Origin: Sinomonas sp. ASV486
Lineage (GTDB): Bacteria; Actinomycetota; Actinomycetes; Actinomycetales; Micrococcaceae
DNA: 64,000 nucleotides
Direction: 5' to 3'
Assembly: GCF_030908215.1 (NCBI RefSeq)
Contig: NZ_JAVFJK010000002.1
Span: 124,001-188,000 of the forward strand
Shown one piece after another: positions 2,790 to 64,000 of this stretch. The translations under genes were made by a program, and so were the position numbers. How positions within the stretch are numbered: the stretch's first letter is position 1; the number at the start of each line of letters is the position of its first letter. The notes under the pieces were generated by a model. It saw only the letters and a program-made list of their open reading frames with translations. It searched no databases and was not told where the DNA came from.

Positions 2790-3365
2790 TTGGCCGAGAA
2801 CACCATCCTGACCCTCGTCGGCAGCCTGCGCGCTGAGTCCGTCAACAGCAAGTTCGCCGAGGTGGCCGCCGCGGCCGCCCCCGAGGGCACCGTCGTGAGC
2901 ACGTTCGAGGGCCTCGAGGAGATCCCGTTCTACAACGAGGACCTCGACGTCGAGGGCAAGGTCCCGGCCAAGGCCGCCGAGCTCCGCGCCGCGGTCGCCG
3001 CCGCGGACGGCGTCCTCTTCGTCAGCCCCGAGTACAACGGCACGATGCCGGCCGTGCTCAACAACGCGATCGACTGGATCTCCCGCCCGTTCGGCGCCTC
3101 CTCCGCAACCGGCACGAAGGCGGCCGTGATCGGTACCTCCGCCGGCCAGTTCGGTGGCGTCTGGGCACACGACGACGTCCGCAAGTCCCTCAAGATCGCC
3201 GGCGCCGAGGTCCTCGAGGACGCCAAGCTCGCGATCGGCGCCTCCTACTCGCGCTTCGCCGAGGTGGAGCCGAAGGATGACTCTGAGGTCGTCGAGGGCA
3301 TCAAGTCCGTCCTGACCGCGCTCGCCGCCCCGGTCGCCGTGGCCGAGGTCGCTTCGGCCAACTGA
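2790..3365 (+). CDS. NADPH-dependent FMN reductase family protein
   Basis: A 191-residue flavodoxin-fold protein of the NADPH-dependent FMN/quinone reductase family. It carries the N-terminal phosphate-binding loop GSLRAESVNSK (residues 9-19) and the conserved SPEYNGTMPAVLNNAIDW stretch (about 80-97) that contacts flavin. The start is TTG at 2790, supported by AAGGAG 5 bases upstream and by the family N-terminus. It is monocistronic, between the ald terminator and a hairpin at 3402. It probably reduces flavin or quinone with NADPH; the substrate cannot be read from sequence. Confidence 0.9.
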   Translation: MAENTILTLVGSLRAESVNSKFAEVAAAAAPEGTVVSTFEGLEEIPFYNEDLDVEGKVPAKAAELRAAVAAADGVLFVSPEYNGTMPAVLNNAIDWISRPFGASSATGTKAAVIGTSAGQFGGVWAHDDVRKSLKIAGAEVLEDAKLAIGASYSRFAEVEPKDDSEVVEGIKSVLTALAAPVAVAEVASAN

Positions 3366-3382
3366 CGCCGCACCAGGCTCAT

Positions 3383-3451
3383 CTGAAGGTCATCTTCTGA
3401 GGGTCATGTCCTGGGGGTCACTTGAGGTGGCTCCCAGGACATGACCTTCAG
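3383..3451. repeat. Nested inverted repeat, possible terminator or repeat element
   Basis: GGTCATGTCCTGGG (3402-3415) pairs perfectly with 3433-3446 around a 17-base loop. A second left arm, CTGAAGGTCAT (3383-3393), is the exact complement of 3441-3451, so two alternative stems share one right arm. GGTCA occurs four times in the segment. It lies downstream of the FMN reductase and just upstream of the metallo-hydrolase promoter. Confidence 0.7.
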
Positions 3452-3509
3452 ACGTCTGTGGGGTCTTTGGACAGTAGCCGCAGGCGGTCGGCACACCTAG
3501 CATTTCGCC

Positions 3510-4907
3510 ATGACGCACGACGGCGGGACGCACCTGAGCTTCTTCGGCGCCACGGATACGGTCACCGGTTCCCGGTACCTCCTCGAGCACGGGGACAAGC
3601 GGGTCCTCGTCGACTGCGGCCTCTTCCAGGGCTACAAGAAGCTGCGCGAGCGCAACCGAGCGCCCCTGCCTGTCCCGCCCGAGTCGATCGACGCCGTCGT
3701 GCTCACCCACGCCCATCTCGACCACTCGGGCTACATCCCTGCCCTCGTGAAGCGCGGATTCCGCGGTCCGGTGTACTCCACTCCCGGAACCGCGGACCTG
3801 TGCACGCTCCTCCTGCCGGATAGCGGGCACCTCCAGGAGGAAGAGGCAGAGACGGCCCGGATGCGCGGCTCGTCGCGGCACAGCGATCCGCAGCCCCTGT
3901 ACACGGCCCGGGACGCAGTCGATTCGCTCGCGTACTTCCACCCGCACGAGTTCCGCGAGCCGCTCCGGCTCGGGCCCGGACTCGAAGTGCGGTTCATCCC
4001 GGCGGGACACATTCTCGGCGCATCCCAGGTGCACGTCACCGCAGGCACCGGAGCCGAGAGGTCCTCGGTCCACTTCACGGGGGACCTCGGACGCGAGGAC
4101 GATCCGCTCATGAAGCCGCCCGCGCCCCTCGAGCCGACGGACGTGCTCGTCACCGAGTCGACCTACGGCGACCGGGCACATCCCCGGAACGATCCCACGG
4201 AGGCGCTGGGCGACGTCGTGCGACGCGTTGCGAAGCGCAACGGGGTCGTGGTGATCGCCGCGTTCGCGGTGGGACGGGCGGAGACGCTCATGCTGCACCT
4301 CGCGCGGCTGCGGCGCCGCGACAGGATCCCGGACATCCCGATCTACCTCAACAGCCCGATGGCCGTGGATGCCACGGAGCTCTACCAGAAGTACCCCGAG
4401 GAGCACCGGCTGAACGAGCGGGAGTTCCGCGAGATGTACGCGCTCCCCCAGATGGTCCGCGACGCCGACGATTCGCGCCTGCTGAACCTCCGTGGCGGCC
4501 CGATGGTCATCATCTCCGCGTCGGGCATGCTCACGGGCGGACGCGTGCTGCACCACGTCGAGGCGTACGGAGAAGACCCGAAGAACGCAATCGTGCTCAG
4601 CGGCTACCAGGCCGGCGGGACGCGCGGGGCCTCCCTGCTCGACGGCGCGACGAGCCTGCGCATCTACGGCCGGGACGTGCCGATCCGCGCGGAAGTCGTG
4701 AGTCTGGACAACCTCTCCGCACACGCAGACGGCGACGAGATCATGCGCTGGATGGGCACGTGCCCACGCGCGCCGAAAATGGTCTACGTGACGCACGGCG
4801 AGGTCGGCGCCTCGGACACCCTGCGGCGCCGCATCCAGCACGAGCTCGGGTGGCGCGCCCGCGTCCCCGAGCACCTCGAGACCGTGGACCTTGCCCATCC
4901 ACGCTGA
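3510..4907 (+). CDS. MBL-fold/beta-CASP metallo-hydrolase (RNA-processing exonuclease type)
   Basis: A 465-residue CPSF73-like beta-CASP hydrolase. The metallo-beta-lactamase core carries the zinc motif HAHLDHSG (about residues 70-77), further metal ligands at HILGASQVH and FTGDLG (about 168-195), and the beta-CASP part with VIIAAFAVGRAE, ISASGMLTGGRVLHH and a late H (LSAHADGDE). Family members are ribonucleases or related phosphodiesterases; the substrate here is unknown. Start ATG 3510 follows TAGCAT by 6 bases, so a leaderless mRNA is likely. The lipoprotein gene follows after 34 bases. Confidence 0.9.
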   Translation: MTHDGGTHLSFFGATDTVTGSRYLLEHGDKRVLVDCGLFQGYKKLRERNRAPLPVPPESIDAVVLTHAHLDHSGYIPALVKRGFRGPVYSTPGTADLCTLLLPDSGHLQEEEAETARMRGSSRHSDPQPLYTARDAVDSLAYFHPHEFREPLRLGPGLEVRFIPAGHILGASQVHVTAGTGAERSSVHFTGDLGREDDPLMKPPAPLEPTDVLVTESTYGDRAHPRNDPTEALGDVVRRVAKRNGVVVIAAFAVGRAETLMLHLARLRRRDRIPDIPIYLNSPMAVDATELYQKYPEEHRLNEREFREMYALPQMVRDADDSRLLNLRGGPMVIISASGMLTGGRVLHHVEAYGEDPKNAIVLSGYQAGGTRGASLLDGATSLRIYGRDVPIRAEVVSLDNLSAHADGDEIMRWMGTCPRAPKMVYVTHGEVGASDTLRRRIQHELGWRARVPEHLETVDLAHPR

Positions 4908-4941
4908 GAAGCACTCTGGGCTCCATACCGAGGGGGACATC

Positions 4942-5664
4942 ATGAAGACCATCCGGCTGGCTGCAGGTTCTGCCGCACTCGCTGCCGCTCTCGCCCTCGC
5001 GGGCTGCTTCGGACCCCCGTCGCCGGGCCCTTCACCGTCCGCATCAGCCTCCCAGTCCGTCCCGCCCAGCGCGTCCGCGAGCACGACGACGAGCGCGAGC
5101 CCCGCGCCGTCGTCCTCCACGGGCACCCCTTCGGCGAGCGCACCATCCACCGCGAGCACAACCCCGACGCCCAGCACGGCCCCGACGCCGAGCACTCCCG
5201 CGCCCTCGACGTCCTCGCCCGCAGCGGAGCCGACCGGCGGCCAGCTTCCCGAGCAGACCGCCCCGCTGACGATCTACTACATCGCGGTCGGCGACGGCGG
5301 GGTGTCGGGCCCGACCGTGGGCTGCGGCGACAGCGCCGTCGCGACGTACACCGAGCCGGTGACGTTCCGCGACCAGGTGGGGCCGAGCCTCAACAGGCTG
5401 TTCGCCAACCACAGCAGGACGATCGGCCAGTCCGGGCTCATCAACGTCCTGTACCAGTCGAACCTCACCTACGTGAGCGGATCCTTCGACGGCACCACGA
5501 TCACCGTCCAGCTCTCCGGCTCGTTCCTCCTCGGCGGGGTGTGCGATATTCCGCGTGCCGAGGCGCAGATCAACCTGACGGCGATGGCGGCTGCCGGGGC
5601 GCAGCGGGCCGCGGTGTTCGTGAACGGGCGGCCGCTCGCGGATGTGCTGAGCCTGAAAGGCTGA
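4942..5664 (+). CDS. Lipoprotein with Ser/Thr/Pro linker and GerMN-like domain
   Basis: A 240-residue exported lipoprotein. The signal peptide starts MKTIRLAAGSAALAAA and ends in lipobox LAGC (Cys21). Residues 22-95 are a low-complexity Ser/Thr/Pro/Ala linker, likely cell-wall spanning. The C-terminal 140 residues resemble a GerMN-type domain (LNRLFANHS, TITVQLSG and a C-terminal AEAQINLTAMA helix). Start 4942 is chosen over the in-frame 4891 because it gives a proper signal peptide and has GAGGGGGA upstream. The two cysteines in the domain (CGDS, GVCDIP) could pair. Function unknown; the GerMN assignment is moderate. Confidence 0.8.
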   Translation: MKTIRLAAGSAALAAALALAGCFGPPSPGPSPSASASQSVPPSASASTTTSASPAPSSSTGTPSASAPSTASTTPTPSTAPTPSTPAPSTSSPAAEPTGGQLPEQTAPLTIYYIAVGDGGVSGPTVGCGDSAVATYTEPVTFRDQVGPSLNRLFANHSRTIGQSGLINVLYQSNLTYVSGSFDGTTITVQLSGSFLLGGVCDIPRAEAQINLTAMAAAGAQRAAVFVNGRPLADVLSLKG

Positions 5665-5769
5665 GCGGTCGCTCCCCGCGTCCTCCCGGCCTACTCTGGA
5701 AGGGAGGCCGGCACTGACCCGTGCGGCCGCGCGGGCACGGCCTCACAGCCAAGAACCGAGGCGACAGAC

Positions 5770-5901
5770 ATGTCAGGATTCGAGCCGGACGCCGAGGACC
5801 GGATCCACAGCGAGGCACCGGCCGAGGGCGACCCCGACCTGGACGTGACAGAGATCCGGGCCCACTCCGAGGCGCCAGCGGAGGGACCCGACGAAGACTA
5901 G
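5770..5901 (+). CDS. Small acidic protein with internal repeat (43 aa)
   Basis: A short reading frame encodes MSGFEPDAEDRIHSEAPAEG followed by a second near-copy, IRAHSEAPAEGPDED. The duplicated word HSEAPAEG is preceded by acidic stretches, giving a strongly negative, probably disordered protein. Codons are GC3-rich like real neighbours. A weak purine-rich site (GAGGCGACAGAC) precedes ATG. A perfect 16-bp stem hairpin follows 45 bases after the stop. No known family recognised. Confidence 0.55.
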   Translation: MSGFEPDAEDRIHSEAPAEGDPDLDVTEIRAHSEAPAEGPDED

Positions 5902-5946
5902 CTGCTGAGAAACCTGCGGGCGCGCTGGCGAGGGGCTGCCAGCGCG

Positions 5947-5986
5947 GAGAGGTAACGCCACGGCCGGGTCCGTGGCGTTACCTCTC
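5947..5986. terminator. Perfect 16-bp hairpin upstream of the AAA ATPase
   Basis: GAGAGGTAACGCCACG (5947-5962) pairs without mismatch with 5971-5986 around an 8-base loop. There is no T-run. The arms are less GC-rich than the other terminators in this window and the position, about 70 bases before the next start, would also suit an operator. Confidence 0.65.
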
Positions 5987-6009
5987 GGCAGACCCTATGA
6001 TGGCTTGAG

Positions 6010-6043
6010 ATTCACGAGATTCACAGGATTCACCGACATTCAC
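6010..6043 (+). promoter_or_regulatory. Four ATTCAC direct repeats before the AAA ATPase gene
   Basis: ATTCAC begins at 6010, 6019, 6028 and 6038 (periods 9, 9, 10) and the last copy ends 10 bases before the GTG start, running into the ribosome-binding site CAGGAG. The near-helical spacing suggests either a protein-binding array or a translational control element. Confidence 0.5.
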
Positions 6044-6053
6044 AGGAGATCGT

Positions 6054-7142
6054 GTGGAAAACCCCTTCAAGCCGACCGCTGGCGCCACGCCCCCCGACAT
6101 CATCGGCAGGCAGGGCCTGCTCGACGAGTTCGCCTACGGGCTCCGGATCCGATCCGGGGCCCCCGGCCTCCTGACCATCTTCACCGGGGCGCGGGGGGTG
6201 GGCAAGACCGTCATGCTCGGGGCCGCCGAGAACACCGCCCGCACCCAAGGGTGGGCCGTCATCTCCGAGACGGCGACGCACGGCTTCCTGGGCCGCATCG
6301 GCAACGCCATGGGCGAGTTCGCCGACGAGCTCGGCGACGGGCCTTCCGGCAGGAAGATCACCGGGGTGACCGTCGCCGGCTTCGGCGTGACGACCCATCT
6401 CCCGCCGGAGAAGCAGGTCGAGTGGCGCGAGACAGGGGCGCGCCTGCTGAGGCTCCTCGACTCCCGCGGAACGGGACTTGTCATCACCGTGGACGAGATC
6501 CATGCTGCCGATCGGCAGGAGATCGCCCAGCTTGCGGCAGACGTGCAGCACTTCATCAGGGAGGGGCTGCCCATCGGCCTGGTCTTCGCGGGCCTCCCTG
6601 CTGCGGTCTCCGACCTGCTCAACGAGGGGGTGGCCACGTTCCTGCGGAGAGCAGACAGGATCGATCTGCACGGGGCATCCATCGAGGAGGTCCAGCGGTC
6701 CTATGAGCAGACCTTCGCCGCAGGAGGCTTTCCTCTCGAACCCGCTCTGGCGGCGGCCGCAGCCGAAGCCACCGGCGGCTACCCCTTCCTGATCCAGCTC
6801 GTCGGGTACTTCCTGTGGCAGGAGGCGGAGGAGGCGTCGGAACTCACGGCGGCACATGTGGAGCACGCCGTCGCGGCGGCGCACCGCAGGAACGAGCGAG
6901 TGGTCATCGAAGCGGCCCTGTCGAGCGCGTCCCACCGCGACCTCGACTTCCTGAGAGCCATGGCTGAGGACGACGACGCCTCGTCGGTAGGCGACATCGG
7001 TGCGCGCATCGTGGCCAAGCCGAACACCATCGGCAACTACAGGTCCCGGCTCATCGACGCCGGCCTCATCGAGCCGGCCGGGTACGGGATCGTGCGGTTC
7101 GCGATCCCCGGGCTCCGCGAGCACCTGCGCGAGAACCGCTGA
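6054..7142 (+). CDS. Stand-alone AAA ATPase with C-terminal winged helix
   Basis: A 362-residue ATPase of the Orc1/Cdc6-like AAA group. Walker A is GARGVGKT (residues 45-52), Walker B is GLVITVDEIH with Asp147-Glu148, and an arginine-bearing FLRRADRIDL segment follows. The last 70 residues look like a winged helix (ISSVGDIGARIVAKPNTIGNYRSRLIDAGLIEP type). Start GTG 6054 follows CAGGAGATC. It has no partner gene: the next gene is convergent. Related ATPases act in replication-origin, transposition or defence contexts, but nothing here fixes a role. Confidence 0.8.
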   Translation: MENPFKPTAGATPPDIIGRQGLLDEFAYGLRIRSGAPGLLTIFTGARGVGKTVMLGAAENTARTQGWAVISETATHGFLGRIGNAMGEFADELGDGPSGRKITGVTVAGFGVTTHLPPEKQVEWRETGARLLRLLDSRGTGLVITVDEIHAADRQEIAQLAADVQHFIREGLPIGLVFAGLPAAVSDLLNEGVATFLRRADRIDLHGASIEEVQRSYEQTFAAGGFPLEPALAAAAAEATGGYPFLIQLVGYFLWQEAEEASELTAAHVEHAVAAAHRRNERVVIEAALSSASHRDLDFLRAMAEDDDASSVGDIGARIVAKPNTIGNYRSRLIDAGLIEPAGYGIVRFAIPGLREHLRENR

Positions 7143-59451: not shown

Positions 59452-60618
59452 CTAGGAAGACTGGGGAACCCTTGTGAAAACCCTACAGAGGTCGAGGAAA
59501 CGCGTATTCGCCTCGGGCTCCCCGATGCTGACGCGGACTCCCTCGGTGCCGAAAGCGCGCACCGACAGCGCCTGCGCGGCGGCGCGCTGGGCGAAATCGG
59601 GTGTCGCCTCGCCGAGCGAAAGCCACACGAAGTTGCCCTGGGCGTCCGGGACGTCCCAGCCGAGCTCCCGAAGTCCTGCCGTCACGCGGTCGCGCTCATC
59701 GACCAGGGTTTGTACCCTTCCTACAACATCCGCGAAGCTCTCGAGGGACGCGATCGCGGCGCTCTCGGCAATCGTGGACACTGCGAACGGCACGGCGGCG
59801 ATCCGCAGGTACTGGGTTACCTCCGGGTGGGACACGGAGTATCCGACGCGGAGGTTCGCGAGGCCGTGCGCCTTGGAGAAGGTGCGCAGCACGGCGACGT
59901 TCGGGTACTTGCGGTACATCGCGATACCGTCCACGGCCTCGGGATCACGCACGAATTCTTGGTAGGCCTCATCGATGACGATCAGCACGTCGCTCCGGAC
60001 GGCCCGGATGAAGCGCTCCGTCTCGTCGCGGCGCAGGGCAGGACCCGTGGGGTTGTTCGGCGTGCAGAGCAGGATGACCCGGGTCCGGTCCGTGACCGCT
60101 GCGAGCATCGCGTCGAGGTCGTGGCGGCCATCGGGCAGCACGGGGACCTGCACGCTCTTCGCGCCCGCGAGCCCGACCGAGATCGGGTAGGCCTCGAAGG
60201 ACCGCCACGCGTAGACGACCTCGTCCTCGGTGCCGTCCTCGCGCTGCCCCGCGAAGGCAGCGAGGATCTGGTTCAGGGCACCCAGGCTGCCGCCGCCGGT
60301 GACGATGTCGTCCGCCGGGACATCGAGGAAGGCCCCGAGCGCGTCCCGGAGCCGCGTCGCGACGGCGTCGGGGTAGCGGTTGATGGCGGATTCGTGCACG
60401 ATCGCCTCGGTCACGGCCGGCAGCGGCGCGAGCGGGTTCTCGTTCGAGGAGAGCTTGTAGCTGGTGAGCCCCTCCACCGGGGCCGGAGGTCGTCCAGCGG
60501 CGTACTTGGGGAGCCGGCTCATCACGGGGCGAGGGGTGACGCCCGTGGGGCCGGCTGCGGCGGCGGAGGCACCGGTGCCCTCGCTGCCGCCTTCGTGCTC
60601 GTTCAGCGGTGAAGTCAT
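59452..60618 (-). CDS. hisC: Histidinol-phosphate/aromatic amino acid aminotransferase
   Basis: A 388-residue PLP enzyme of the HisC group: LSSNENPLAPLPAVTEAI, TGGGSLGALNQIL, LLCTPNNPTGPALRRDE, VIDEAYQEFV and PLP-Lys in LRTFSKAHGLANLRVGY. HisC-like enzymes outside the his operon often act as phenylalanine/tyrosine aminotransferases (Pat), and the position ahead of the oxoacid dehydrogenase genes supports an amino acid catabolic role. ATG is 7 bases after TACGCT (minus), so leaderless; the frame is open much further upstream without support. Confidence 0.9.
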   Translation of the reverse strand: MTSPLNEHEGGSEGTGASAAAAGPTGVTPRPVMSRLPKYAAGRPPAPVEGLTSYKLSSNENPLAPLPAVTEAIVHESAINRYPDAVATRLRDALGAFLDVPADDIVTGGGSLGALNQILAAFAGQREDGTEDEVVYAWRSFEAYPISVGLAGAKSVQVPVLPDGRHDLDAMLAAVTDRTRVILLCTPNNPTGPALRRDETERFIRAVRSDVLIVIDEAYQEFVRDPEAVDGIAMYRKYPNVAVLRTFSKAHGLANLRVGYSVSHPEVTQYLRIAAVPFAVSTIAESAAIASLESFADVVGRVQTLVDERDRVTAGLRELGWDVPDAQGNFVWLSLGEATPDFAQRAAAQALSVRAFGTEGVRVSIGEPEANTRFLDLCRVFTRVPQSS

Positions 60619-60702: not shown

Positions 60703-61125
60703 ATGCGCTTCCTGCTGCACGTCATCGTCAGCGCGCTCGCCCTGTGGGTGGCCGCGTGGATCCTCCCCGGCATGGATATCACTACGTCCTCGACCGCGGG
60801 CGTCGCCGCGAACGCCGGCGCCGGCGACGCGAGCTCGGCCGCGGGGATTGTCATCGCCTATCTGTTCATCGGTCTCATCTTCGGGCTGGTCAACGCGATT
60901 GTCAGGCCCGTTGTGAGCTTCGTGTCCCTCCCAGTCACCTGTCTGACCCTCGGGCTGTTCGCACTCGTGATCAACGCCGCGATGCTCTGGCTGACGGCGT
61001 GGGTCTCGGGCTACACGCCGGTCCACCTCACGATCGATTCCTTCCTCACCGCCTTCCTGGGCGCCATCATCATTTCGGTTGTCTCGGCAGTGACGGGCTG
61101 GGCCGTAGGGCTGCGGAAGAACTAG
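60703..61125 (+). CDS. Phage-holin-family (4-helix) membrane protein
   Basis: A 140-residue protein with four membrane helices (FLLHVIVSALALWVAAWILPG, IVIAYLFIGLIFGLVNAIVR, CLTLGLFALVINAAMLWLTA, FLGAIIISVVSAVTGWAVGL). RPVVSFVSLPVTCLTLGLF is the signature of the superfamily IV holin-like group, which is common on bacterial chromosomes without phage genes. Its end overlaps the convergent hydrolase gene by 56 bases. Confidence 0.85.
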   Translation: MRFLLHVIVSALALWVAAWILPGMDITTSSTAGVAANAGAGDASSAAGIVIAYLFIGLIFGLVNAIVRPVVSFVSLPVTCLTLGLFALVINAAMLWLTAWVSGYTPVHLTIDSFLTAFLGAIIISVVSAVTGWAVGLRKN

Positions 61126-62488
61126 GCGCGCCCGGCGTCGCCGGCGTCGTCGTGTCTGTGCCCGTGTAGACGAACCGCTCGCGGCGGGGGCCCGCACCGG
61201 CACCGGCAGAGGCCGTCCCGATGATCCCGGTCCCCACCGCGACGCCGAGGAGCGAGGCGTAGCCGCGGACCGAGGGGTCGGTCGAGGCATCCAGCGCCCG
61301 GGCGTCCGAGGCGTAGCGATCGAGACCGTGGGCGGTGACCACCGCGTCAAGCAGCCCTCCGCTGCCGACGTCGGGGTAGGAAGGGGTCCGGACATCGACG
61401 ACGTTCGGCCGCGGAACGGGCGGGAGGCCCGAGAGTCCGGGCACCACGTCGTCTCGGTTCGCGACGCTCAGCACCGCGACGTCATCGGGAACGCGGAACG
61501 CCGTCGGGACACCTCCGAGCACTGTCACGGCGACCACGGGATGCCGCCTCCGGAAGTCCTCATCCTCGAGCAGGCCGAAGACGTGCAGGGAGCCCTGGCT
61601 GTGGGCGTTGAAGACCACGACGTCCCCGGCGCGCAGCTGCTGGTCGCCGAGCGCGCGCTCGATGAGCTGCCGCGCGTGGCTGTCCCTTCCGGCCATGGCG
61701 TCGAGGTTGCCCTCGCCGTCGAAGATGCCGCCTCCGGGATCGTCCGGGGACCATGTCTGCGTCCCGGGCACCGTGACGATGACGGCCACGCTGCCGTCCG
61801 GCTTGGGGATGCGCTCCACGAGGACGGACGACGGCGGCACGCTGGTTCCGTCGTCGAGCGTCGCCGCGCCCTGGGCCTGCTGCAGGCTCCTCCCCGCGTA
61901 GGCGAACGTTGAGGCGTCCTCCGAGCCCGCGGCGACCTCGGACCGGACGACGCTGATCCTGTCGCGCGGCCCGCCGGCCACGACCCACGGAACGAGCGGG
62001 GGCACCGCGGAGGCCCCACCGAGGAGGAGCCGCAGGCTCTGGGCACCCCCGCGCACAGGGGCCTCCCCCGGGACGCGCCAGAGTCCCGGAGGGACCAGTC
62101 CCCAGACGAGCCCGCGCATGATCAGCTGATGGCCGCCCGCGGCGCCGGCGATCTGCGCCTCGGCGGCGCGGTAGCCGGACGCGGCGGCGGCGACGCCCCG
62201 TGCGGTGGCCCGAGTGTCGAGGGCCGCCCGCGCCGCCTGCCCGATGAGGGCCGCGGCCTCGTCGTCGAACACCGCTGCCGAGGCGCTTCCGGCGCACGCA
62301 CCCCGCCATACGGCCGCTCGGGCCGCCTCGAGGCACACGGGCAGGCCCGCGATCACCGAGGCGGCCGACGCGAGCGCGCCGATGGCCGTGTCGAGGGCCT
62401 CCAGATTGACGCGGAACGACGCCCCACCGGTGACGACGAACGTCGAGGGGTCCCGGAGCTCCTCACCACTCACCGCGAATCCGGTCAT
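61070..62488 (-). CDS. WXG-like helical domain fused to an alpha/beta serine hydrolase
   Basis: A 472-residue protein. The first 130 residues form Ala-rich amphipathic helices of WXG100 type (turn VWRGACAGSASAAVF near Trp61). The hydrolase part follows: VIVTVPGTQTWSPDD, nucleophile VVFNAHSQGS (Ser near 298), NRDDVVPGL (acid) and VVTAHGLDRY (His). The combination suggests a type VII secretion-type effector or cell-surface lipase. The start overlaps the stop of the small WXG-like gene (ATGA). No signal peptide. Low-complexity C-terminal tail. Family not recognised beyond the fold. Confidence 0.75.
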   Translation of the reverse strand: MTGFAVSGEELRDPSTFVVTGGASFRVNLEALDTAIGALASAASVIAGLPVCLEAARAAVWRGACAGSASAAVFDDEAAALIGQAARAALDTRATARGVAAAASGYRAAEAQIAGAAGGHQLIMRGLVWGLVPPGLWRVPGEAPVRGGAQSLRLLLGGASAVPPLVPWVVAGGPRDRISVVRSEVAAGSEDASTFAYAGRSLQQAQGAATLDDGTSVPPSSVLVERIPKPDGSVAVIVTVPGTQTWSPDDPGGGIFDGEGNLDAMAGRDSHARQLIERALGDQQLRAGDVVVFNAHSQGSLHVFGLLEDEDFRRRHPVVAVTVLGGVPTAFRVPDDVAVLSVANRDDVVPGLSGLPPVPRPNVVDVRTPSYPDVGSGGLLDAVVTAHGLDRYASDARALDASTDPSVRGYASLLGVAVGTGIIGTASAGAGAGPRRERFVYTGTDTTTPATPGAPSSSAALRPSPSLPRQPK

Positions 62489-62949
62489 CTGCAGGCCGCC
62501 CCGTCCGCGGGGCCCGGGCCAGCGGACGGACCGGCAGAACCCCGTGTGAAGGCCGGGCCGCTCGGCGTCTCAAGACGCAGGGCGGGTGTGGGCGCGGGCA
62601 GGGGCGCGATGGGGCCGACAGGTCGTCCTGCCACTAGCCAGGCGGGGCCGGACGCGGGCGCTCCGACCGGACCGCGCGCGCCCGGGAGTCCAGAGCATGC
62701 CGCAGAGTCGGCCTGTAGGGCCGCCGCCACCATGGCGAGCCCGGCCAGGCCCGCCGCGAGTGCGGCCAGCCGCGCAGCAATCGCGGCGGTCGAGGTGCCG
62801 AAGGCGGCAGCGGCGGGGCCGCCCCATTCGACGGCCTCGGCCCGACCCAGGGACGCCCGCGCCTCGTCGACCTCGTCCTGGGCCTTCGCGAGCTGCGTCG
62901 CCGCAGCCCGGAGTTCGGCCTCGTCGTGGCCGCATGTCGTTCCGGTCAT
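62485..62949 (-). CDS. WXG100/ESAT-6-like small protein
   Basis: A 154-residue protein. Residues 8-85 are two predicted helices separated by EWGGPAAAAF (Trp42, WxG-type turn), as in WXG100 proteins: DEAELRAAATQLAKAQDEVD and AAIAARLAALAAGLAGLAMV. The C-terminal 70 residues are a Pro/Gly/Ala tail. GGGGAGGGGACC precedes ATG 62949. Coupled to the hydrolase downstream; the two probably form a secreted pair. The assignment is by pattern, not by strong family similarity. Confidence 0.65.
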   Translation of the reverse strand: MTGTTCGHDEAELRAAATQLAKAQDEVDEARASLGRAEAVEWGGPAAAAFGTSTAAIAARLAALAAGLAGLAMVAAALQADSAACSGLPGARGPVGAPASGPAWLVAGRPVGPIAPLPAPTPALRLETPSGPAFTRGSAGPSAGPGPADGAACR

Positions 62950-63135: not shown

Positions 63136-64000
63136 ATGGCTGATTCATCCTCGCGCATCCCGTCCGGACGTCTTTCCCTTGCCGCCGGTGAGGCTGCCGG
63201 GCCGGCAGCCGCGCAGAACATCGCCCTCGGTCCGCTCGACGGGCGCTATCGGCCGGCCGTCGCGCCGCTTGTCGACTACCTGTCCGAGGCCGCGCTCAAC
63301 CGCGACCGCGTGGCGGTGGAAGTCGAGTGGCTCATCCATCTGACCCGCAACTCGGTCCTCCCCGGCGCGGGTCCGCTCACCGCCGAGCAGGAGGAGGGCC
63401 TGCGGAAGATCGTCACGGAGTTCGACGCCGCCTCGGTCGGCGAGCTCGCGGAGATCGAGGCCGTCACAGTGCACGACGTCAAGGCCGTCGAGTACTACAT
63501 CGGACGGCGCCTCGAGGGCCTCGGCATCAAGGACCTGACCCCCATGGTGCACTTCGGCTGCACCTCCGAGGACATCAACAACCTCTCGTACGCGCTGGGT
63601 ATCAAGGGCGCCGTCGAGGACGTGTGGCTCCCCGCCGCCCGCGCGCTCGTGGACCAGATCGCCGAGATGGCCCGCACCAATCGCGACGTGCCGATGCTCT
63701 CGCGCACGCACGGCCAGCCCGCGACCCCCACGAGCCTGGGCAAAGAGCTCGCGGTCATGGCGCACCGCCTCGGCCGGCAGCTCACGCGGATCGGGCGCAC
63801 CGAGTACCTCGGGAAGATCAACGGCGCGACAGGCGACTTCGCGGCGCACGTCGCGTCCGTGCCCCGGGCGGACTGGCAGCAGGTCTCGGAGTCCTTCGTC
63901 GAGGGTCTCGGACTCACGTGGAACCCCCTGACCACGCAGATCGAGAGCCACGACTGGCAGGCCGAGCTGTACGCGGACGTGTCGCGCTTCAACCGGATCC
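63136..64000 (+). CDS. purB: Adenylosuccinate lyase (incomplete, runs off the window)
   Basis: The first 288 codons of a PurB-type lyase, which splits SAICAR and adenylosuccinate in purine synthesis. ALGPLDGRYRPAVAPLVDYL, VEVEWLIHLTRN, VHDVKAVEYYIGRRL and FGCTSEDINNLSYALGIKG (His/Thr-Ser region) are typical, as is MLSRTHGQPATPTSLGKELA with the catalytic His. GGAGGTC precedes ATG. The active-site Ser loop lies beyond 64000. Confidence 0.95.
   Translation, partial: MADSSSRIPSGRLSLAAGEAAGPAAAQNIALGPLDGRYRPAVAPLVDYLSEAALNRDRVAVEVEWLIHLTRNSVLPGAGPLTAEQEEGLRKIVTEFDAASVGELAEIEAVTVHDVKAVEYYIGRRLEGLGIKDLTPMVHFGCTSEDINNLSYALGIKGAVEDVWLPAARALVDQIAEMARTNRDVPMLSRTHGQPATPTSLGKELAVMAHRLGRQLTRIGRTEYLGKINGATGDFAAHVASVPRADWQQVSESFVEGLGLTWNPLTTQIESHDWQAELYADVSRFNRI

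Follow-up and report, generated by a model that had tools for sequence, protein, structure and literature searches.

The 64,000-nucleotide stretch of Sinomonas sp. ASV486 DNA analysed here (contig NZ_JAVFJK010000002.1, positions 124,001 to 188,000), henceforth referred to as the window, contains two overlapping minus-strand genes that encode a short helical protein, P0002, and a larger protein, P0001, in which a helical head precedes an alpha/beta hydrolase. A first-pass annotation of the sequence had described the genes as coupled by an ATGA overlap and as having the design of substrates of a type VII secretion system (T7SS). Both open reading frames were recovered on the minus strand, and the features of the pair are listed below in window coordinates.

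62485..62949, minus strand: P0002, 154-residue WXG100-like partner protein (open reading frame, conservation, model)
62836..62922, minus strand: P0002 helix 1, residues 10-38 (AlphaFold2 model)
62824..62826, minus strand: P0002 W42 of the WGG turn, invariant in 23/23 partners (alignment)
62692..62817, minus strand: P0002 helix 2, residues 45-86, hydrophobic in Sinomonas (model, hydropathy)
62488..62691, minus strand: P0002 proline-rich tail, low-confidence and probably disordered, with C-terminal CR
62485..62488, no strand assigned: ATGA overlap of P0002 and P0001, translational coupling
61070..62488, minus strand: P0001, 472-residue WXG-headed alpha/beta hydrolase (open reading frame, homologues, model)
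62138..62449, minus strand: P0001 WXG100-like head, residues 14-117 (model, profile alignment)
62159..62173, minus strand: P0001 Y106-R-A-A-E110, YxxxD/E motif closing the head (alignment, motif count)
61229..61957, minus strand: P0001 alpha/beta hydrolase core, residues 178-420 (model, structure alignment)
61592..61603, minus strand: HSQG nucleophile elbow with S297 (alignment)
61448..61450, minus strand: catalytic-acid candidate D347 (alignment)
61328..61330, minus strand: catalytic-base candidate H387 (alignment)

The coupled pair was confirmed. The junction reads ...TGCAGATGACC..., so that the ATG of P0001 and the TGA of P0002 share 4 nucleotides, and the P0002 start is preceded by a ribosome site (GGGGGAGGGGACCATG) that was rated good. 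The GC content of P0001 by codon position (0.76/0.59/0.88) is typical of a genuine high-GC gene; that of P0002 (0.80/0.73/0.79) is little informative. A P0001 homologue covering most of the length was preceded by a P0002 homologue in all 14 Sinomonas genomes searched, this one included, and the pair is therefore considered real. With start codons picked by ribosome site and conserved N-terminus, the overlap is 4 nucleotides in 13 of these genomes and 1 nucleotide in the other. In a single-query search with P0001, 45 of 58 relatives had a homologue, among them 14/14 of the genus, and all 47 places in these 45 genomes were examined.

The AlphaFold2 model of P0002 is a helical hairpin, mostly with predicted local distance difference test (pLDDT) values above 90, in which W42 is placed between the helices. 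The WGG turn recognised at first pass is thereby borne out, and the modelled two-helix hairpin with an invariant turn tryptophan is a feature of WXG100 proteins. P0002 did not reach the curated cut-off of PF06013 (WXG100) and had no match to it, and nothing in Pfam or NCBIfam scored better than E 0.25; among its relatives, 10 of 23 matched PF06013 at E<=0.1 (best 9.4e-4). The model resembles unrelated hairpins equally with Esx chains on structure comparison, and the end of helix 2 has no YxxxD/E of its own. The peak 19-residue Kyte-Doolittle mean, found in helix 2, was 1.8-2.4 in 14/14 Sinomonas partners and 0.7-1.4 in the nine partners from other genera, and a P0001 helix (residues 35-53, window 62330-62386) reached 2.0. 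This hydrophobicity of the Sinomonas pair may reflect packing in a buried position or contact with a membrane. All 14 Sinomonas partners also have an N-terminal Cys near a His (C-G/R/S-H, with one extra residue in L008) and a penultimate C-terminal Cys (CR in 13, CP in one; window 62488-62493). The Cys residues (window 62932-62934 and 62488-62493) are perhaps a disulfide or metal site.

The P0001 model (pLDDT 84.8, predicted template modelling score 0.81) consists of helices at residues 29-47, 49-63 and 69-116 followed by the alpha/beta hydrolase. The helical N-terminal domains that the first-pass annotation had expected to bundle together are thus both modelled as helical hairpins. The head was compared with a canonical WXG100 profile built from 29 proteins of relatives (30 loci less L101, which was too short), and 85 columns were aligned through the terminal YxxxE at E 2.6e-6 and probability 89 (hhalign), while reversed controls for the same comparison gave E 0.041 and 0.12. 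Overall, true-order profiles matched WXG100 at E 1e-4 and 2.6e-6 and reversed ones at 0.018 to 0.12; the full set of eight reversed-profile controls gave E 0.0032, 0.015, 0.018, 0.039, 0.041, 0.044, 0.072 and 0.12. The head and partner profiles also matched each other (E 6.5e-5 and 4.9e-5). A relationship of the P0001 head to the WXG100 superfamily, which the first-pass annotation had proposed to check by profile search, therefore extends over the whole domain. Against PF06013 itself, 3 of 29 members of the P0001 family matched at E<=0.1.

The helical domain closes with the YxxxD/E motif, as in T7SS substrates. Y106 is present at 44 of the 46 places that have a head and the complete motif at 43, and it is found in 29/29 aligned relatives. 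The WRG turn that had been noted in the head fared less well: W61-R-G is indeed present in 8/14 Sinomonas rows of the alignment and occurs in 0/15 other rows, and it precedes the WXG position by a few residues. By its alignment, then, WRG appears not to be the WXG position of the head and to be confined to part of Sinomonas, so the head would supply the YxxxE and the partner the W.

The hydrolase core is modelled as an alpha/beta fold with candidate catalytic residues S297, D347 and H387, a Ser-Asp-His arrangement that corresponds to class 3 lipases. The HSQGS serine-hydrolase core had been called correctly: S297 of the HSQG elbow is kept at 47/47 places, and D347 and H387 at 46/47 each. The invariant columns of the 29-relative alignment are M1, Y106, T243, A279, S297, G299, G325, D347, H387 and Y392. 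VIA-align ranked class-3 lipases first for the model, Foldseek returned no match at E<=0.001, and P0001 had no Pfam, NCBIfam or PDB-sequence match. PF01764 (class 3 lipase) did not match P0001 and matched 4/29 family members at E<=0.1 (best 3.6e-4). PE and PE-PPE domains (PF00934, PF08237) likewise gave no match to P0001, with one of 29 members matching PE-PPE at 0.053, and membership of the LipY/PE or PE-PPE families was rejected on this basis. P0001 is accordingly modelled as a WXG100-like head joined to a class-3-lipase-like alpha/beta hydrolase, with a presumptive enzyme activity. The first-pass statement that no named family was known agrees with Pfam and NCBIfam, which cover neither protein.

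The pair recurs in other genomes, as the first-pass annotation had proposed to check. A profile was built from 34 partners (rows L006, L007 and L027 were trimmed at the wrong Trp), and a W-bearing partner frame was found upstream on the same strand at 43/47 places at E<=0.1 and at 42 at E<1e-3, the single weak match being L070 (E 0.078). A helical WxG partner gene alongside is thus found here as in T7SS substrates. The partner was recovered at 9/12 assessable places outside the profile set. The misses are L055, L056, L057 and L026, whose contig breaks off within the hydrolase; by eye, W-bearing helical stretches are seen in L055 and in the hydrolase heads of L056 and L057 themselves.

Type VII machinery was searched for in the Sinomonas genome and its relatives. 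EccB was absent from the own genome and present in 5/58 relatives; EccC over the ESX cut-off was absent and present in 15/58; EccD had no match and was over the cut-off in 9/58 relatives, with any match in 18/58. The own genome therefore lacks T7SSa (ESX) machinery as defined by EccB, EccD and an EccC over cut-off. T7SSb machinery, defined by YukC/EssB and YukD/EsaB, was also lacking: YukC/EssB was found in neither the own genome nor any of the 15 genus members, and YukD/EsaB was absent from the own genome and present in one of the 15 (G001). A single canonical WXG100 match was found in the own genome, on a contig different from that of the ATPase described below, and PF06013 was matched over cut-off in 57/58 relatives, G002 having a partial match. 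Contig C32 of G001 additionally carries an EccC of ESX type that passes the cut-off and an EccD match that does not, and judging from these matches ESX loci may have been gained and lost within the genus.

The own genome does encode a 1429-residue EssC-like protein (G000:C18:17900-22186) with an FHA domain at residues 109-175 and an FtsK/SpoIIIE domain at 563-764. An EssC-like ATPase with a conserved FHA core is a feature of T7SSd. Long matches to the Sinomonas protein were found in 14/14 genus genomes. The protein contains GRS, SREH and GSANG, which are taken to be the FHA core motifs, and two presumed Walker A motifs. In the 20 kb around the gene, inspection revealed no secretion genes and no T7SSd cluster of TsdA, the TsdD kinase, TsdH and TsdI, and no search aimed at TsdD, TsdH or TsdI was made. 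Genes of the cell-surface polysaccharide type presumably lie near it, as does a small WhiB-like gene.

Co-occurrence was examined in 149 genomes sampled across the order. The P0001-family profile (E<=1e-3) was matched in 135; the weakest three matches (E 1.5e-5 to 8e-7) may represent hydrolases of another kind. An EccC/EssC-like ATPase, whose presence in related genomes was needed by the first-pass reading, was matched at E<=1e-25 in 141/149 members and in the own genome; this threshold was set after the genus search to exclude ordinary FtsK proteins. Hydrolase and ATPase were both present in 133 genomes, the ATPase only in eight, the hydrolase only in two and neither in six (G037, G087, G113, G127, G141, G155), giving a Fisher p of 5.6e-6 with phylogeny ignored. 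Within family f3 all ten sampled genomes were concordant, five having both genes and five neither.

The pair is probably a type VII-style substrate pair exported by the EssC-like ATPase. In the mechanism proposed, the WxG hairpin of P0002 and the N-terminal hairpin of P0001, which ends in YxxxE, would pack together, and the two motifs would form a composite export signal. The FHA/FtsK membrane ATPase, encoded elsewhere, would read this signal and translocate both proteins out of the cell. There the class-3-lipase-like domain (S297, D347, H387) would act as an esterase, with a lipid or some other ester of the envelope as its most plausible substrate. A role in envelope maintenance or nutrition rather than as a toxin is suggested by the housekeeping-like position of the locus and by its retention across the order. 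The type VII substrate design suggested at first pass is supported by the profile relationship of the head to WXG100, the YxxxD/E motif, the partner and the ATPase co-occurrence; the use of the head WRG as a WXG motif is not supported. A broader and more tentative proposal, possible though short of an even chance, is that most of the order keeps a minimal housekeeping type VII route, in which an EsxA-like protein and an EssC-like ATPase with FHA domain would work with the other known components missing, and whose core cargo would be the WXG-headed lipase-fold enzyme and its WxG partner acting on the envelope. On that proposal, exporting a conserved enzyme by type VII secretion would be an ancestral function of monoderm Actinomycetota, unconnected with virulence.

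Several observations weigh against export by this route. The ATPase and the gene pair sit on different assembly contigs, and with no EccB, EccD, YukC or YukD the proposed route consists of an ATPase almost alone. In eight genomes the ATPase was matched and the hydrolase was not (G049, G057, G082, G090, G098, G109, G139, G153), and two have the hydrolase without the ATPase (G046, in 320 contigs, and G066, in 1060 contigs). At most ten hydrolase and four ATPase candidates were scored per genome, so some absences may be misses, above all in the large f15 genomes. The Fisher test takes no account of phylogeny and mixes FHA and ESX ATPase types, and genome reduction could remove both genes at once. 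Neither P0001 nor P0002 is matched by a Pfam WXG100 model, and the partner profile matched its own reversal at E 0.0032, so that this control was not clean. Among the frames picked up by this profile were two overlapping, incorrect ones (L005, E 0.013; L007, E 2.7e-4), which makes the two weakest partner assignments, L067 and L070, doubtful. The motif itself varies: in L052 the Tyr is kept and Asn replaces the acidic residue, and the Tyr is missing from the paralogous L056 and L057. Finally, the hydrophobicity of P0002 helix 2 and P0001 residues 35-53 suggests a fit to a membrane-associated hairpin in Sinomonas.

The locus is bounded by two genes that recur beside the pair and are treated as syntenic neighbours, not counted with the unit.

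60703..61125, plus strand: convergent PF04020 protein, syntenic neighbour (Pfam, synteny)
63136..64000, plus strand: divergent purB-like gene continuing past the window end, syntenic neighbour

The latter is called purB-like by assumption, no family search standing behind the name, and PF04020 is taken from its Pfam name to be a four-transmembrane holin family. With flanks of at least 1.5 kb where the contig allows, the purB-like gene was found at 38/47 places and the PF04020 protein at 32/47, misses being no proof of absence. The 3' end of P0001 and the convergent PF04020 gene share 56 nucleotides (window 61070-61125). Four neighbouring genes were scanned and identified as PF04020, an aminotransferase, a dehydrogenase E1 and an acyltransferase E2; the first-pass remark that no secretion machinery lies nearby thus holds for these four, the rest of the window not having been scanned. 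Within the genus, identity to the window copy was 42-71% for P0001 and 32-54% for P0002, compared with 66-86% for PF04020 and, over the available portion, 82-90% for the purB-like protein, and by these values the pair appears to evolve faster than its neighbours. No plasmid record matched P0001 at 1e-5. Because the purB locus is fixed and plasmid matches are lacking, the pair was most likely inherited vertically, and a mobile element or mobile toxin was rejected.

Three other explanations were considered. The main rival is that the pair remains in the cytosol or on the inner face of the membrane, where head and partner would serve an intracellular lipid esterase as a module for oligomerisation or membrane docking, with descent from a WXG100 protein and loss of export. 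A genome without a full known T7SS, the hydrophobicity of helices in the Sinomonas pair, the fixed and housekeeping-like locus and the two genomes in which the hydrolase was found and the ATPase was not detected would all fit such a protein. This is nevertheless rather unlikely, since a mere docking helix would have no need of the YxxxD/E that is kept, together with the catalytic triad, in 29/29 aligned relatives, and the ten f3 genomes have or lack hydrolase and ATPase together.

Less likely still is a polymorphic lipase toxin with antibacterial action that a T7SS exports, similar to TslA and accompanied by an unrecognised immunity protein. T7SS phospholipase toxins with helical partners are known (excerpts of PMC10730906), a membrane protein of PF04020 adjoins at 32/47 places, and in the L057 paralogue a WXG-headed hydrolase is followed by a lipoprotein-like gene. 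A toxin with an immunity gene was rejected for the window pair because the next gene is convergent, the next gene on the same strand (59452-60612) encodes an aminotransferase and the locus, with its purB-like neighbour and no plasmid match, is fixed; the whole enzyme domain is moreover the same in the 29 aligned relatives, with no swapped toxin tips. Chance or convergent likeness of Ala-rich helices in a high-GC genome, with no type VII relation, is very improbable. It would draw on the Ala-rich sequence, the want of a useful Pfam match for either protein, the one reversed control at E 0.0032 and the equal resemblance of the P0002 model to unrelated hairpins, but the reversed profiles matched WXG100 far less well than those in true order, W42 is invariant in 23 partners and the partner position is kept at 43/47 places.

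Read as an exported pair, P0001 and P0002 can be set beside several known systems. Joint WxG and YxxxD/E motifs are described in excerpts of PMC4536007, together with export of the LipY lipase by ESX-5 via Y-A-A-A-E. In excerpts of PMC3935865, YxxxD/E is located in the C-terminal helix of WXG100 proteins, and in those of PMC10140165 EspB holds both motifs inside one helix bundle. Mycobacterial LipY, a PE domain joined to a lipase, is like P0001 in having an N-terminal helical export domain with a YxxxE before the lipase (YAAAE and YRAAE, respectively; PMC4536007, in part). It differs in that P0001 has no PE-family match and has a coupled WxG partner, of which, according to the same excerpts, there is little evidence for LipY, and in that no ESX locus was detected in the Sinomonas genome. 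Inhibition of the enzyme by its head is also reported for LipY. The Staphylococcus aureus T7SSb phospholipase toxin TslA, with TlaA1 and TlaA2, is a likewise similar cargo of lipase and small helical partners (excerpts of PMC10730906); TslA has a C-terminal helical part, two partners and an immunity lipoprotein, whereas the head of P0001 is N-terminal, its partner is single and an immunity gene is not evident.

P0002 shares with WXG100 proteins, EsxA-EsxB and Lap partners a hairpin with a turn W within a WxG plus YxxxD/E scheme (excerpts of PMC3935865), and differs in lying outside the Pfam model, in its 154-residue length and Pro-rich tail and in lacking its own YxxxD/E. The T7SSd of Actinomycetota, for which the abstract of Garrett et al. 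2024 (PMC11217815) names Olsenella and Bifidobacterium, likewise has an FHA-bearing EssC-like ATPase and a WXG100 protein and no ubiquitin-like protein; in Sinomonas no cluster was recognised near the ATPase on the inspection described above (TsdD, TsdH and TsdI not searched for), and the WXG100 gene is elsewhere. T7SS lipases are already known, in LipY and in TslA with its helical partners (PMC10730906, in part). Searches of the open-licence literature turned up no paper on the pair and no account of the hydrolase family, of its spread across the order or of its link to an otherwise bare ATPase.

The hydrolase family was matched in 135/149 order genomes, yet neither window protein is covered by a Pfam or NCBIfam model. 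If the pair is exported, type VII secretion would gain a conserved cargo unrelated to virulence, along with a minimal machine that could be studied in harmless soil bacteria. Direct tests could then be made of the composite signal formed by WxG and YxxxE and of what an EssC-like ATPase does without partners.

Variant arrangements were observed at several places. L045, L046 and L047 have a three-gene version, with an extra gene of 223-292 residues between partner and hydrolase (290 residues for the L045 frame). The middle gene had no Pfam match and PF14011 was negative in those genomes, and an EspG chaperone was therefore rejected. In the paralogous hydrolases of L057 (~3300-6200) and L056 (6086-7990), the head itself contains a W-x-G and is without the Tyr of YxxxE. 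At L057 the hydrolase is followed by a gene for a 145-residue protein that is lipoprotein-like by eye, a layout more like that of a toxin and its immunity protein.
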